Part shown: in pieces, positions 4,706 to 10,549 of the stretch | Numbering within the stretch: the stretch's first letter is position 1 | Layout: every line of letters begins with the position of its first letter | Source of the DNA: a virus | Virus record (IMG/VR): IMGVR_UViG_3300017782_000276 | Coordinates: 1 to 21,243 of that record | Length of the DNA stretch: 21,243 bases | Strand: one strand, 5' to 3' | Position numbers and translations under genes: made by a program | The notes under the pieces: generated by a model | Told to the model about the DNA's origin: nothing | What the model saw: the letters and a program-made list of their open reading frames with translations, nothing else | Databases searched by the model: none

Positions 4706-4793
4706 ACTAATAATATTAACTATGGCACTAGCTACCATTACAGCTCTACTTGTTGTAGAGTTAATAGTTAGATGGATTAATCGTTTAGATTGA
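4689..4793 (+). CDS. Predicted single-span membrane peptide (34 aa)
   Basis: Last gene of the operon. Residues about 5-29 form one long hydrophobic helix (LKLIILTMALATITALLVVE, then LIVRWI) with a short polar end. I chose ATG 4689 (AAAGGAA just upstream). The longer frame from 4605 has no SD and would overlap the previous gene almost completely. It could be a small holin-like or host-membrane-acting peptide, but no endolysin gene lies next to it, so no role is assigned. Confidence 0.55.
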   Translation: MIEALKLIILTMALATITALLVVELIVRWINRLD

Positions 4794-4858: not shown

Positions 4859-5290
4859 CTATAATAAATCCACCAGGCCCACTAAAAGAAAATGCTTCTT
4901 ACCACCAGGTTGAGACTTCCTTAATCTTTTCTGCTCACCTTCTAACACACACCAAACCACCTCGTTATCAATCAGCTCCGTCATAGCTCGCCCAGAGGTT
5001 TTCCTATTCACCCCCGTCATCTTTGCATAATAACTAATCGCATCGTGACTGCTCCAGGTTTCATACCTCCACCGCTCGCACACCGCCCAAAGAATCAGCT
5101 TCGCACTCACGGACAGATCCGTTCTCCCGCACTCACGCCTGAACCATGCCCACACCACCCCGCGCACTCGCGAGAAGTCTCCCTCTCTCCTGGCTAGCTC
5201 TAAAGGAACAAATACTCCCGCGCGCTCACGCTCGCTCGTGTGAGCCGTGATCCACCAGTGATCCTTGTCTATTGTTTTAAATCTTTTCAT
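4859..5290 (-). CDS. Winged-helix replication-initiator-like protein (143 aa)
   Basis: Residues about 58-118 (LSVSAKLILWAVCERWRYET, then SSHDAISYYAKMTGVNRKT, then SGRAMTELIDNEVVW) match the helix-turn-helix plus wing pattern of phage O-type and plasmid Rep N-terminal domains. The likely role is origin recognition and helicase loading (inference). Supporting context: it lies directly downstream of four 22-bp-spaced direct repeats, and a primase-helicase gene precedes it on the same strand. The start ATG 5290 has AGGGAAGAG just upstream. A 13-bp hairpin precedes that site. The gene is visibly GC-richer than its neighbours and uses many GCG, CGG and GTG codons, which suggests separate origin. 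It could instead be a repressor that binds the same repeats. Confidence 0.7.
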   Translation of the reverse strand: MKRFKTIDKDHWWITAHTSERERAGVFVPLELARREGDFSRVRGVVWAWFRRECGRTDLSVSAKLILWAVCERWRYETWSSHDAISYYAKMTGVNRKTSGRAMTELIDNEVVWCVLEGEQKRLRKSQPGGKKHFLLVGLVDLL

Positions 5291-5302: not shown

Positions 5303-5334
5303 GGAAGCTGAACCCCCTCAAGGGGTTCGCTTCC
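5303..5334 (-). promoter_or_regulatory. Hairpin in the leader of the initiator-like gene
   Basis: GGAAGC (5303-5308) and GAACCCC (5310-5316) pair with GGGGTTC (5322-5328) and GCTTCC (5329-5334). This gives 13 base pairs with one bulged base (5309) and a 5-nt loop. In the minus-strand mRNA it ends just before the AGGGAAGAG ribosome-binding site of the gene at 5290. It could control translation, attenuate transcription or be a structural element of the origin. There is no T-tract for a normal terminator. Confidence 0.65.
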
Positions 5335-5337
5335 TAT

Positions 5338-5354
5338 ATTCCATATAATGGAAT
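5338..5354. promoter_or_regulatory. Perfect palindrome ATTCCAT-ATA-ATGGAAT
   Basis: Two perfect 7-base arms around ATA, in an AT-rich stretch between the direct repeats and the leader hairpin. It looks like the binding site of a dimeric protein. By analogy with iteron plasmids, the Rep dimer often represses its own gene at such an inverted repeat (established for that class, inferred here). Confidence 0.55.
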
Positions 5355-5359
5355 GGATA

Positions 5360-5447
5360 TATGTCCCTGTCTTACTAGAGTTACGTCCCTATCTTGGTCA
5401 GGGTATGTCCCTAACACTCCCATACTATGTCCCAAACACTCCCTATG
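5360..5447. repeat. Four direct repeats with exact 22-bp period (iterons)
   Basis: Cores TATGTCCCT (5360-5368), TACGTCCCT (5382-5390), TATGTCCCT (5404-5412) and TATGTCCCA (5426-5434) start exactly 22 bp apart, about two helical turns. All four copies thus face the same side of the DNA. Units 3 and 4 also share AACACTCCC after the core and match at 17 of 22 positions. Units 1 and 2 are more diverged outside the core. This is the typical length and phasing of iterons bound by replication initiators. Confidence 0.85.
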
Positions 5448-5451
5448 GCAT

Positions 5452-7281
5452 TTAAAAATTATCATATAAATTACTGGTATCCAGCGGTTCATTTAATGGT
5501 TCTAATACACCATTGCGTCTGAATAATGTTTTAGAGGAATAGTCTACACCTCCGCTGTTGGATTTTACTAATGCGCCTCTAACCACCGCCATCCTATCGT
5601 AAGGTACATGCTGCTCTTCACAAATCCTTTCACAATCCTCAACACTTGCCAGGGCCATTGTCAGGCAGAACCTCTGCGAATCTACTAATGAGCTAGCCCC
5701 ACGCACGCTCGTTCTCTGCACCATTGAATCATCTGAGTCTACAGTTAAACCTTGTTTGTTTAAGTGGTGAATGGTTAGCGTGCAGCACTTTAATCTTGCG
5801 CTGATGTTTGCGCAGTAAGATCCCCAAAGCTGGCCTACCTCGTTACTGCTTGATACATTACCTGTAGTAAATGCCTGGAGCGGATCAAAACAAACCAGCT
5901 TAACATCTGGTATTGATTTTATTTCCTCTACTAGCTCCATCGCCAATTCAGTAACACCCTCTTCTCTCAATAAAATCATTGGTTCTTTTTGTTCTGGAAT
6001 TGGAAAGATATAAACCTCATGCTCTGACTTAAATCTTTTTCCCTGGGGATCTAAAAGTTCTAGCCTTCTATGTATCTCTGGAAGATCATCCTCACTGGCA
6101 AAAATAATAGAGTTACCACGTTCAGTAACATCCTTACCCCACCAACGACCACCACAGCAAATCGCCAGGGCTAACTGAATTACACTTAAAGACTTTCCAA
6201 CTCCACCAGATGCTGCTAGCAGTCCAGGCTTACCCATAGGTATCAAACCATCAACCAAAAACCTCTGTGGCTCTGGCTTACCCTTCAAATTTCTAATCGC
6301 ATACTTTTTTATGCCAAGCTTATGATCCATAAGTTCTGCTCTAACCTTGTCCAAACCATGCCTTAAATATAAATCATTGTAGTCACCTATCTCGCTGGGC
6401 AGGCGCACGGCCACGTTTGTGATAGCTGATGCACATTCCTGGGCTTTCTTTTCACCAACGCCACTCTCATCGTGATCCAGGGCTAAAATTATCCTAGATC
6501 CAGTAAGCTTGCGCAGATTAGAGACTGCATCCAACGCGAAGTTGGCACTAAACACGCAAGCAACTGGAAATCCTGTAGCTTCATATATTGTGGCGGAAGT
6601 TGAGTAGCCTTCAGCTACCACCAACTTTTCACAATTAGCTAATTCATTAAATGTAGTTCCAATTAAAAATACATTACCTTTAATTTCAGACGAGGAAGCA
6701 AACTTTTTACCCCCTTTTTTATCAATATACTGTATAGATCTTATTTCACCTGTAGTAGAATACACGGGAACAATCAAGCTATCGTACGATTGTTTTAACC
6801 CATAGTTTTTAACCTTTTTATTTGTGAGATAATCATGCTCAAGAACATTTTGGCATTTGTTAAATTTTTCCCTTACCTCTATAGCCACCTCATCTTGCCG
6901 AGCTTGTCGCTTAATTTTCTCTTCCTTCGCAGCCTCTTCCATCTTTTTTTGTAGGGCTTCTCTATCAACCTGGCTTAATGTAGAAGAGCTAACAGAACTC
7001 CACTTACCCTCAAACCCAGTTTTCCAATTACCATAAGTAGCAAAGTAATGGCCATTAAATGTATTAACTACATACCAGCCTGATCTAGAATTTCCTAAAT
7101 CTGGTTTCATTCCTGGTAATGCTGTTGGAACTCTAACTATAGCTCCAGATGCTTCAATATGATTTACTTGCAAACCTTGCGCCTGCATTTCATTTATTAA
7201 ATCATTTATTGTTTTTGTTTCTTTGTTGTCGCTTAATTCAAATATTATGTTTCGATCTTTGCAGTATTTCTTTAGATCCAT
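5452..7281 (-). CDS. Primase-helicase (TOPRIM plus RepA/DnaB-like ATPase)
   Basis: A single protein of about 609 residues that probably primes and unwinds DNA at the fork. Positions below count from the upstream alternative start at 7299. The N-terminal part has a GWYV...FATYGNWKTGFEGKW stretch common in phage primases. A TOPRIM domain is at about 220-330, with VVAEGYSTSA (catalytic Glu) and ALDHDESG (DxD). A RecA-fold ATPase follows, with Walker A AASGGVGKS near 365, Walker B VCFDPLQAF near 470 and a downstream IHHLNK motif. The frame opens at 7299, but ATG 7281 (MDLKKYC) has AAAAGGGG at proper spacing, while GGGAAG touches the 7299 ATG, so I prefer 7281. The 5' end overlaps the preceding gene. 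No separate DNA polymerase is in this window. Confidence 0.9.
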   Translation of the reverse strand: MDLKKYCKDRNIIFELSDNKETKTINDLINEMQAQGLQVNHIEASGAIVRVPTALPGMKPDLGNSRSGWYVVNTFNGHYFATYGNWKTGFEGKWSSVSSSTLSQVDREALQKKMEEAAKEEKIKRQARQDEVAIEVREKFNKCQNVLEHDYLTNKKVKNYGLKQSYDSLIVPVYSTTGEIRSIQYIDKKGGKKFASSSEIKGNVFLIGTTFNELANCEKLVVAEGYSTSATIYEATGFPVACVFSANFALDAVSNLRKLTGSRIILALDHDESGVGEKKAQECASAITNVAVRLPSEIGDYNDLYLRHGLDKVRAELMDHKLGIKKYAIRNLKGKPEPQRFLVDGLIPMGKPGLLAASGGVGKSLSVIQLALAICCGGRWWGKDVTERGNSIIFASEDDLPEIHRRLELLDPQGKRFKSEHEVYIFPIPEQKEPMILLREEGVTELAMELVEEIKSIPDVKLVCFDPLQAFTTGNVSSSNEVGQLWGSYCANISARLKCCTLTIHHLNKQGLTVDSDDSMVQRTSVRGASSLVDSQRFCLTMALASVEDCERICEEQHVPYDRMAVVRGALVKSNSGGVDYSSKTLFRRNGVLEPLNEPLDTSNLYDNF

Positions 7282-7648
7282 CAGTACCCCTTTTATCATC
7301 TTCCCTGGCTCTTGCGTTAGCCCAGTTTAGATATTCTCTTATGATTGAAACAAATACCTTTTTTCTATCTTCGCGTTTCCACTTGTGTAATGGATCTTCT
7401 TTGTTTGCAATCAATAATTTTTTATATAAATCTTTGGTTGATGCTATGGCGTACTCTGCCCCAATATCATTAAGTTGGGCTTTGTTTGGAAGGCGTTTAC
7501 CTTCTTTTATTTTATCTAAGTGAGCCATACAGCATGCTCCAATCCAGTGTTCTTTATCTTGGTATAAGAATGGCCCAGCTGGGGATTTACAATATCCACA
7601 CAGCGTGGGCCTATCTTCCTCGAGATTAAAACGGCGCGTCTTCATCAT
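7238..7648 (-). CDS. Zinc-ribbon-like protein of the replication block (136 aa)
   Basis: Cysteines 17 and 20 (CGYC) with C39, C40 and H43 (GACCMAH) suggest a metal-binding N-terminal ribbon. The rest is a Lys/Arg-rich helical region (LYKKLLIANKEDPLHKWKRE, then REYLNWANARAREDDK). No family is recognised. A nucleic-acid-binding accessory role in replication fits the position between SSB-like and primase-helicase genes (inference). Its start overlaps the end of the SSB-like gene, and its end overlaps the primase-helicase start, so the three are translated as a coupled set. No strong SD is seen before ATG 7648. Confidence 0.75.
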   Translation of the reverse strand: MMKTRRFNLEEDRPTLCGYCKSPAGPFLYQDKEHWIGACCMAHLDKIKEGKRLPNKAQLNDIGAEYAIASTKDLYKKLLIANKEDPLHKWKREDRKKVFVSIIREYLNWANARAREDDKRGTDGSKEILQRSKHNI

Positions 7649-8123
7649 CTAAAGTTGTTGATCCCATTTTTTCTAGATCAGCAGCTGAAGGTGATGCCTC
7701 AATAGGCTTCTCGCTTACAGTTTTTTGTTTTTTATTAGTAGCTTCCCAGGTTCTGCCCCAGTCTTGATCTACCTCAAAGAAAGTGCTTCCCTCTTTTTGC
7801 TTTATTACAGCTGAAACACTTTTACCCATAAAGGCACTTTCAGTGTCACTTGGTAGCTCTTTTAAACCCATAGCCTTGCACATTGCTAATAAAGATTTTA
7901 ATCCATTCTGCACAACTTTTTCATTGTCATGCCTGGTTGTAAATAGAGCGTCAACAGTTTGCGCAGTATCCTCTACTTCAAACTTTGCGCTGTATCCTTC
8001 CCAGCTTGGATTCTTTTCACTTGTTAATACCTTTTCACCTTGAAAGTGTAAAACGTATCTACCAGGCTTTAAATTAACTCTGCCGTCAGTATCGGCTTCT
8101 ACTTTATAATTACTTAAGTCCAT
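7626..8123 (-). CDS. SSB-like DNA-binding protein with acidic tail (165 aa)
   Basis: The N-terminal about 115 residues are beta-rich (GRVNLKPGRYVLHFQGEKVL, then YSAKFEVEDTAQTVDALF). The end is a disordered linker closing in LDDEDAPF. That tail closely matches the DDDIPF-type C-terminal peptide by which single-strand-binding proteins recruit partners. DUF669-like phage proteins, which occupy the same gene position, show this design. The likely role is coating single-stranded DNA and supporting the neighbouring Sak4-like recombinase. SD AGAGGAG lies at good distance before ATG 8123. Confidence 0.75.
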   Translation of the reverse strand: MDLSNYKVEADTDGRVNLKPGRYVLHFQGEKVLTSEKNPSWEGYSAKFEVEDTAQTVDALFTTRHDNEKVVQNGLKSLLAMCKAMGLKELPSDTESAFMGKSVSAVIKQKEGSTFFEVDQDWGRTWEATNKKQKTVSEKPIEASPSAADLEKMGSTTLDDEDAPF

Positions 8124-8138
8124 ATTATTTCTCCTCTG

Positions 8139-8267
8139 TTATATCCAACATTTATATTCAACGCAATCGTCTTGCTTAGATCCACAATAGTTACAATAAC
8201 CATCTGTGTATTGCGGATCATCACCAGGATCAAACTCGTTATATTCTAATAAAATTATTTCGTTCAC
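8139..8267 (-). CDS. Cys-rich microprotein with GTG start (42 aa)
   Basis: GTG at 8267 overlaps the TGA of the Sak4-like gene (GTGA) and has GGGAGGA about ten bases upstream. The product reads MNEIILLEYNEFDPGDDPQY, then TDGYCNYCGSKQDDCVEYKC and WI. It has an acidic N-terminus and cysteines 25, 28, 35 and 40 spaced as a compact zinc-binding knuckle. It fills the gap between two replication genes exactly, in the same direction. No family is recognised. Without this ORF the gap would be an unexplained 140 bases. Confidence 0.65.
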   Translation of the reverse strand: MNEIILLEYNEFDPGDDPQYTDGYCNYCGSKQDDCVEYKCWI

Positions 8268-8989
8268 TTTAACATTTCCTCCCTTATGATCTTCCAATCC
8301 ATAGGTATTTCATCTGGAAGGTTGTATCTGTTTTTAGCTAAGAAAGCTGGCTCTTCATTTGTGTAAATGATTCTATCACCACTAACAGTTTTAGTAGTCA
8401 TTCCACCGCTCTTACCTTGTACTTTGATAGTGCCAAGTTTTTTTGCTGCAAAGAAACAAGCGTCTGAGTGTTCTAACAATAATGCAGATGCTTTTCTATG
8501 CAGTTTTAGTGAATACCTATCATAAGGTTCTATTCTAGGATCTTCTACTTTTCTTACTTCACTGTGACATATCTGAAATATCATCATACCTTTCTCTCTT
8601 AATACATTAAGAGCGTCAATGTACTTGCGCCAGTAGTTCAGTGTTTCAGTATAGCCCTTACCAAAAGAAGGTTGATCGATTGATTTCCACCCATTGTCCT
8701 GGCAAGCTTTTTCCCATAATAAATTTTCTAACCAATCAAGAGAATCAATACATACTGTTTTATAGTCATGTTCCTCTGTGGCTAGCTCATGTAGATTTAC
8801 CATCACATCTTCATAAGATTTACAACGGATGTTATCCATTTCGATCTTACCCAAACCATCCTCTACATCTAATAGTATTGGATTTTTTGTTTGTGATGCT
8901 AAATGCGTTTTACCAACAGCAGGGCCACCATGAACAATAATTCTAGGTGGCTTCTGCTTTGATTTTTTTCTTATATCAGCTAATCCCAT
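8264..8989 (-). CDS. Sak4-like RecA-fold ATPase, single-strand annealing recombinase
   Basis: 241 residues. Walker A is VHGGPAVGKTHLAS (about 19-32), Walker B is YKTVCIDSLDWLE near 80. Further conserved parts are the FGKGYTETLNYWRKYIDAL stretch and an MIFQICHSEV strand. This is the layout of phage AAA_24/Sak4 ATPases, RecA-like core proteins that promote strand annealing with an SSB partner. The SSB-like gene and a PD-(D/E)XK nuclease beside it complete a typical phage recombination set. The start overlaps the previous stop by one base. Confidence 0.88.
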   Translation of the reverse strand: MGLADIRKKSKQKPPRIIVHGGPAVGKTHLASQTKNPILLDVEDGLGKIEMDNIRCKSYEDVMVNLHELATEEHDYKTVCIDSLDWLENLLWEKACQDNGWKSIDQPSFGKGYTETLNYWRKYIDALNVLREKGMMIFQICHSEVRKVEDPRIEPYDRYSLKLHRKASALLLEHSDACFFAAKKLGTIKVQGKSGGMTTKTVSGDRIIYTNEEPAFLAKNRYNLPDEIPMDWKIIREEMLK

Positions 8990-9234
8990 TATTCAGTCTC
9001 AATTAAAGATTCTGATTCAACGGCGCCTTTCAATTGTCTAGCATATTCAGCTCTAAGAATATCAAGCTTTTCAATTTCAAAGTTTGCATTGCCAACAAAT
9101 TCATTCTTTTGCCTTTCAACAGTTGCTAATTTGTTATATAGCAATTTATTGTCGTCTGTTAGACTATCAAACTCATATTCAGTTCCGCCCTCTTCAAAGC
9201 TAAACTTAATTGGTTCTTGTTGTACTTCAGTCAT
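8989..9234 (-). CDS. Short coiled-coil phage protein, DUF6447-like (81 aa)
   Basis: A short beta N-terminus (IKFSFEEGGTEYEFDSLTDD) is followed by a long amphipathic helix (LYNKLATVERQKNEFVG to YARQLKGAV). This resembles the small DUF6447-type phage proteins with a G-x-x-Y-x-x-x-x-L-S/T-D start and one coiled coil, which have no established function. It is coupled to the nuclease gene by a 4-base overlap and to the Sak4-like gene by one base, so it is probably co-translated with both. The family name is from memory. Confidence 0.75.
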   Translation of the reverse strand: MTEVQQEPIKFSFEEGGTEYEFDSLTDDNKLLYNKLATVERQKNEFVGNANFEIEKLDILRAEYARQLKGAVESESLIETE

Positions 9235-9962
9235 TTTTTTTCCTCGTTATGTAGTTTATATAAATCACAGATGCTTCTTGCGTTGCACCAGCGACAGTGA
9301 TCCCCAAATACAAATTTAGGGTTTTCCTCTTCGCACGCCACCACGGCAGGCTGTAAGAAATCGTAGGCCCAATCCACTAAATATTCAGCGGTTGTGAGCC
9401 ATGTCTTGATAGGGCCACCGCCCCATGTTGCTCTTGGTTGTACGATAGTAATCTCAACTTCTGTGTCTTCACTACCATATCTTGATAATGCGCCTAGCGC
9501 ATATATCATTGCTTGTTTGTTGTTATCTGGGCTGACGGGAAATTTACCAGTTTTAAGATCTATAACGCACATCTTTTGGGGAGTAATGATTAGCGCGTCT
9601 GCATATCCATAAAGGTTATCTGAAATCTCTTCAAGCCTAACCTTTTGTTCAACTAGCAGTCTCCCGTCTAATTGTTTTGTTCTGTTTTGTACATAATCAA
9701 CATACACTTTTGCACAGTCAATCATGTCCTGGTCAACTTCTATTTCAAAGTCTTCCACATATTCTTTTTTACCAAGCCAATAGTCCTCCAGGCTTACATC
9801 AACCAAAAAGCCTTTAAGTAATTGTTCAGTCATGGAATGTATTAAAGTACCTACAGCTGCGGGTAAGCCTACCTGATAGTCAACTTTAGCAGCTAACTTT
9901 GGCATACCTGGACATTTTGTCCATTTGTCTGATGCTGATGGGCTAAGTAAGGCGTGCTTCAT
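9231..9962 (-). CDS. Cas4/AddB-like PD-(D/E)XK nuclease (DUF2800 type)
   Basis: 243 residues. A conserved start LSPSASDKWTKCPGM carries the first Cys (17). Nuclease motifs follow: GTLIHSMTE (motif-I His), GYADALIIT, VIDLKTGK (D-x-K core) and QAMIYALGA. A C-terminal cluster CRWCNARSIC supplies three more Cys. Four Cys in this order usually hold an iron-sulfur cluster in Cas4/AddB-type nucleases. The role is probably exonucleolytic DNA processing for recombination with the Sak4-like ATPase. The start overlaps the HTH gene by 20 bases. Confidence 0.88.
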   Translation of the reverse strand: MKHALLSPSASDKWTKCPGMPKLAAKVDYQVGLPAAVGTLIHSMTEQLLKGFLVDVSLEDYWLGKKEYVEDFEIEVDQDMIDCAKVYVDYVQNRTKQLDGRLLVEQKVRLEEISDNLYGYADALIITPQKMCVIDLKTGKFPVSPDNNKQAMIYALGALSRYGSEDTEVEITIVQPRATWGGGPIKTWLTTAEYLVDWAYDFLQPAVVACEEENPKFVFGDHCRWCNARSICDLYKLHNEEKK

Positions 9963-10231: not shown

Positions 10232-10549
10232 ATGACAATAGATAAATTAACACCAAAAGAATGGGATCAAGCAATAGATAAGCTTGCCACCAATAATCAG
10301 GTTGGCGGTGAACATTACAACACTTTAAAAATACAGCCGATTGATTATATTTATGCTAATAAGCTATCCTATAACTTAGGAAGTTGTTTAAAGTACATTA
10401 CTAGAAACAAAGGTGAAAATGAAGACAGGATTAAAGATCTGTTAAAAGCAAAACATTTCATTGATCTGGAATTAGAAATGGTACACGGAGTAGATAAAGA
10501 TGGAAATAACATTGGTCAATACTCTATTGAGGTATCAATAAACAAGTAG
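10232..10549 (+). CDS. DUF3310-family phage protein (105 aa)
   Basis: The core (residues about 21-80) carries QVGGEHYNTLKIQPIDYIYA, LSYNLGSCLKYITRNKGEN and IKDLLKAKHFIDLELE. These are the defining features of DUF3310, a common phage family often annotated as a nucleotide kinase without firm proof. The role is possibly in nucleotide metabolism during phage DNA synthesis (uncertain). The SD AAAAAGGAATAAT lies in the mirrored leader shared with the divergent HTH gene. Confidence 0.88.
   Translation: MTIDKLTPKEWDQAIDKLATNNQVGGEHYNTLKIQPIDYIYANKLSYNLGSCLKYITRNKGENEDRIKDLLKAKHFIDLELEMVHGVDKDGNNIGQYSIEVSINK

Follow-up and report, generated by a model that had tools for sequence, protein, structure and literature searches.

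The closest described counterparts of the locus analysed here are replication origins that contain iterons. In the oriV of IncQ plasmids such as RSF1010, iterons are accompanied by a GC-rich segment, an AT-rich segment and two palindromes, including ACCCCCGGAGGGGGT (PMC7557826); RepC opens the DNA at the iterons, RepA unwinds it, and ssi sites are where the primase begins (PMC6925257). Lambdoid phages combine four phased iterons with the winged-helix initiator O and adjacent AT-rich DNA (PMC7466680); in lambda, the ori is part of the O gene itself, and each iteron is an imperfect inverted repeat. In the SaPI Rep and SCCmec Cch2 systems, the iterons are directly downstream of the gene for the initiator helicase, whose own C-terminal domain binds them (PMC7581432). 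In PLE, a satellite of V. cholerae, the DNA-binding domain of the initiator RepA varies together with the repeats of the origin, the two forming a swappable module, and origin-targeting nucleases and escape from them are known between ICP1 and PLEs (PMC8263062).

The window, which is the whole stretch of 21,243 nucleotides analysed (IMG/VR record IMGVR_UViG_3300017782_000276), has a 161 bp gap between two genes, p615 and p143. Read along the minus strand, the gap holds an array of 22-bp units, the motif ATATCC, two hairpins (H2 and H3) and a likely ribosome-binding site. Since about 90 distinct related sequences share this layout, it is very probably the replication start site of this phage group, and the module is read with good confidence as an iteron-type origin of a tailed dsDNA phage, with p143 as the putative iteron-binding initiator. 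Targeted literature searches found no paper describing this module. Its features, and those of the adjoining genes, are as follows.

7626..9962, minus strand: remainder of the replication/recombination operon, comprising a 165-aa protein of unknown function, a Sak4-like annealing protein, an 81-aa ORF and an exonuclease (DUF2800)
5452..7299, minus strand: p615 (615 aa), a Toprim primase fused to a RepA-type AAA_25 helicase (Pfam AAA_25, 6.6e-31; Toprim_3, 2.1e-7)
5360..5447, minus strand: iteron array of 88 bp, the core of the module, made up of four 22-bp units (5360-5381, 5382-5403, 5404-5425 and 5426-5447)
5355..5360, minus strand: ATATCC (GGATAT on the plus strand), adjoining the array and kept in 204 of 204 loci
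5338..5354, minus strand: H2, an AT-rich palindrome (ATTCCAT-TAT-ATGGAAT) and candidate unwinding or cruciform site, with stem complementarity in relatives
5303..5334, minus strand: H3, a hairpin rich in GC (GGAAGC-GAACCCC-TTGAG-GGGGTTC-A-GCTTCC), whose 3' arm has a single bulged A and which has a counterpart in relatives
4859..5290, minus strand: p143, a winged-helix protein and putative iteron-binding initiator (HTH_36, PHROGs, AlphaFold2 fold and co-variation with the array)

The original prediction had placed four TAYGTCCCW cores at 5360, 5382, 5404 and 5426, with an exact 22-bp period and an end at 5447, and all of this was confirmed. These are the only exact matches in the 21,243 bases on either strand (expected, 0.33), and four copies were reached in none of 100 dinucleotide shuffles; allowing one mismatch added eight scattered matches, which is the chance number. 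When four equally spaced copies (spacing 15-30) were compared, 7 of 9 columns were identical, against a maximum of 5 in 200 shuffles, and the strongest periodic element of the window has a period of 22 and begins at 5356 (45 of 66 positions; runner-up, 36). On the gene strand, the word of the array is GGGACATA. Tandem Repeats Finder did not report the array, whose copies are presumably too dissimilar. The original prediction had seen the array and overlooked ATATCC, H2, H3, the primase-helicase gene at 5452-7299 and the 21-bp subfamilies described below.

The 143-aa product of p143, a gene convergent with plus-strand ORFs that end at 4793, had been called initiator-like on the basis of a winged helix, and this description held. 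HTH_36 is matched by 24 of 29 family members (best, 2e-6), with the window copy scoring under Pfam's cut-off, and members match three PHROGs families, all named replication initiation protein. At E 0.01, HTH_36 was the only Pfam match of the 29 members, with none to the RepC or O families. The AlphaFold2 model (29 sequences) is a winged helix with a mean pLDDT of 67; its core blocks mostly reach about 77-92, dropping to 61 over residues 71-80. Structure comparison returned many winged helices with tied Z below 8.3 and no specific relative, and the fold therefore names no family. RctB domain 1, from an iteron-binding initiator, was listed at Z 6.8 with the first, poorer p143 model only, and the weak Foldseek rows, in which winged helices are numerous, include a putative O protein (E 0.07). 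Against solved structures, the p143 sequence gave a single weak match (E 0.064). Relatives of p143 were absent from 50,697 phage records, and relatives of either p143 or p615 were absent from the cellular genome contigs searched.

The only solved structure matched by the helicase half of p615 is that of RSF1010 RepA (1G8Y/1NLF, phmmer, E 4.1e-8), which places it with the RepA family of hexameric helicases. As in IncQ, the helicase gene is accompanied by a separate gene for an iteron-binding protein (here p143, putatively), and iterons, an AT-rich segment and palindromes occur together. In contrast to IncQ, the primase is a Toprim domain fused to the helicase and not a RepB' protein, p143 has no Pfam match beyond HTH_36, the repeat unit is 21-22 bp and of unrelated sequence, and the system belongs to a phage. 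The plasmid-like replicon of the original prediction thus fits the RepA-type helicase, but relatives of RepC and RepB' were not found, and the module may therefore work like IncQ without being a member. The proposed likeness to lambda O/ori is functional only: a phage here too has four phased iterons next to AT-rich DNA, together with a winged-helix protein as the putative initiator. However, the array is intergenic and thus outside the initiator gene, its units are mostly direct repeats, the helicase is phage-encoded and RepA-type with no helicase loader recognised, and no O-family match was obtained. Overall, the module may work like IncQ oriV, lambda ori or SaPI ori without necessarily belonging to any of them.

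Relatives were IMG/VR loci encoding homologues of p143 and p615. They were drawn from several scans, some of which gave identical contigs, and so do not count as independent. ATATCC lies 40-140 bp before p143 in every one of the 204 loci (up to L249; 90 distinct sequences) that include the start of p143 and 150 bp or more of sequence upstream of it, and it is retained even when 0.4-1.9 kb of other sequence separates p615 from p143. Among loci with enough sequence, none had p615 without p143. The best direct period in 89 distinct arrays was 22 (38 arrays), 21 (24), 44 (19) or 43 (8), with a median z of 5.9. The words themselves are specific to subfamilies: GGGACATA-type words in the group of the window, and elsewhere ACTATAGTAGAACTTGGACATA, a 21-bp GGGAA/GGGACATA, TTGCGACAAAAGTGGTACC, GTGGACATTTTGTACC, TTGTAGCAAAGCGCTACAA, TGTGGCGTAGAGTGACA and others. 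In most subfamilies the units are direct repeats rather than clear dyads. A dyad model for all units, prompted by words such as GGGAGTGTT/AACACTCCC and by clear dyads in L226-L241, was rejected, as inverted self-similarity is within chance in most subfamilies (median z 0.6, distinct arrays).

Absence of the repeats from close relatives that keep the gene would have refuted the original prediction, but such relatives do carry them, and the repeats change together with p143. For the 53 loci with both proteins, the Spearman correlation of array distance was 0.81 with p143 distance and 0.63 with p615 distance; the partial correlation with the array was 0.67 for p143 (given p615) and 0.22 for p615, values that no permutation reached. 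For instance, p615 of L161 and L163 is about 31% distant from that of the window, as far as that of L031, and yet both loci keep a window-type array and a window-type p143. The array thus tracks p143 far better than p615, which argues for p143 as its partner. Across eight groups, 21-bp arrays go with SVG in the p143 recognition helix and 22-bp arrays with other helices, an association read from sequence in few independent cases (L050 versus L006 and relatives). Unit words also differ where p143 is closely similar, as in the last unit of L004 versus L008, which counts against the reading because it blurs which base contacts recognition would need. One idea is that words are exchanged among phages with closely similar p143 as an escape from origin-targeting nucleases. 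The co-variation resembles that of PLE RepA and its origin repeats.

The locus therefore has the properties by which an iteron origin would be recognised: at least three phased repeats of one word in non-coding DNA, an AT-rich ATATCC/H2 segment adjoining the array in the window and its relatives, and an adjacent winged-helix initiator-like gene that co-varies with the repeats. That the repeats are iterons of the initiator, and hence an origin, is favoured by their retention and co-variation, but GC skew lends it no support: a skew turn had been expected at the array, whereas on eight long relatives the skew follows gene strand and orientation and leaves no mark there.

Co-variation with p143, together with a position directly upstream of it in most relatives, would also be expected of an autoregulatory operator, through which p143 or another regulator would control p143 and the end of the operon with no role in starting replication. 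Iteron initiators often serve both as initiator and as autoregulator, and an operator role for p143 is inseparable by sequence from an origin role; both may be true. As the sole function, however, an operator is improbable. No sigma-70-like promoter was found in the region, albeit by a weak kind of scan, and the module is intact, with a period of 21 bp, in L276-L282, where a small ORF lies between it and p143. The conserved ATATCC and two hairpins would be superfluous for such a site, and distant phages that lack p143 keep word arrays at the same place.

These are the isolated phages PB15, CGphi29 and 1N2-2, which encode distant homologues of the primase-helicase (28% identity). In the gap directly after the primase-helicase gene, PB15 has 12 copies of GGTTCAY (2 in the rest of the locus), CGphi29 has 6 of GGGACAY (1 in the rest) and 1N2-2 has 11 of GGTACAY (none in the rest), the words standing in both orientations. 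These arrays are likely to be the phages' own origins, and their place is that of the iterons downstream of the helicase genes of SaPI Rep and SCCmec Cch2. Unlike in those systems, where the helicase binds its iterons, the separate p143 appears to do so in the window. The window's p615 is 45-53 aa shorter than the homologues in isolated phages, and its C-terminus matched no DNA-binding domain in Pfam. By analogy, we infer that the DNA-binding part sits on the helicase in the isolated phages and on a separate gene in the family of the window. The arrays in the isolated phages, which are phages of Alteromonas, Salicola and Idiomarinaceae, occupy stretches without an annotated feature (L266:5451-5901, L267:5406-5647 and L268:5157-5421).

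The two hairpins were also compared among relatives. Of 43 distinct sequences, 95% have a hairpin at the place of H2, compared with 2% of shuffles, and 15 of 15 distinct 6-bp stems are perfectly complementary, versus 44% (maximum, 70%) when arms were re-dealt between sequences. In 27 distinct H2 hairpins, 198 of 200 stem pairs are Watson-Crick, with no G-T or A-C, a count that is suggestive only because the hairpin finder itself favours Watson-Crick pairs. Read in this way, the pairing would be easier to reconcile with a role at the DNA level (as a cruciform, in template-switch repair or as an exposed single strand) than with an RNA element. H3 varies as well, and its 13 stems are 88% paired, versus 65% when re-dealt (maximum, 81%), the GC-rich inner stem being less informative. 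Folded with RNA parameters, H3 has 6% G-U pairs, almost all of them T-G (55 of 64); these were taken, without a pair-by-pair check, as extra loop-closing pairs, and H3 is therefore no arbiter between RNA and DNA.

Since H2 and H3 lie just before the ribosome-binding site and the pairing of H2 is kept while its sequence changes, the region could instead be a structured RNA leader of the p143 mRNA, acting for example in processing or translation control, with the repeats as part of the RNA. The gene strand as RNA does fold better than shuffles (z -3.2), but each strand also folds well as DNA (z about -4.5), there is no Rfam match, the absence of G-U and A-C pairs from H2 is unlike typical RNA stems, and the exact 21/22-bp phasing points to double-helical DNA, all of which makes a leader very improbable. 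That another protein binds the region as a packaging (pac/cos) or partition site is scarcely credible: such sites can hold repeats and the terminase genes lie at least 3.2 kb away in the window, but the large terminase is 85-98% identical across relatives with completely different arrays, the array tracks p143, and the window has no recognisable partition gene of the ParA/ParM type.

If the module is an iteron origin, p143 would occupy one face of the DNA by binding the four phased 22-bp units, as helical phasing and co-variation suggest, and the nucleoprotein complex would then strain or open the adjoining AT-rich ATATCC/H2 segment, judging from its location and composition. The helicase part of p615, which is RepA-type, would be loaded at the opened segment, and the Toprim part would prime synthesis. 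Possibly, H2 and H3 are exposed as single-strand hairpins that aid helicase or primase entry, which is the weakest step of the scheme. In a more specific version, which we consider rather unlikely, H2 and H3 would act as single-strand initiation hairpins, becoming exposed as the origin is opened by p143 and the RepA-type helicase and giving an IncQ-like start of the strand-displacement type with a Toprim primase; the words would also be exchanged as modules within a fixed layout, perhaps escaping origin-targeting nucleases or parasites.

For a group of uncultured phages, with relatives of 34-37 kb and about 38% GC, the analysis thus predicts both an origin and its initiator. The initiator-iteron pairs, which differ in their words and have one of two periods, form a natural series for learning how winged-helix initiators choose DNA. 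The results also suggest that several phage groups share a replication layout in which a word array closely follows the gene for a RepA-type primase-helicase.

Several minor observations were made. At 10232-10549 on the plus strand, opposite to the flanking genes, the window has a 105-aa ORF that matches many PHROGs families, several of them named nucleotide kinase. In the arrays of L046 and L031-L045, neighbouring units have long complementary stretches (AGTAAGTTCTAC / GTAGAACTTACT), and alternative one-strand hairpins are possible. An origin-directed nuclease beside the array was considered and rejected, as the recognised genes in the slot between p615 and the array are modification enzymes and none are nucleases. 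The window itself has no gene inserted between the primase-helicase gene and the array. In relatives, this slot is a swap site for DNA-modification genes, including the Mom family, a C5 cytosine methylase, N6/N4 methylases and a PAPS-reductase-domain protein, with inserts at L008:5252-5830, L118:6704-7360, L024:4551-5834, L042:146-1432, L058:744-1397, L143:8017-8958 and L083:3337-4308.
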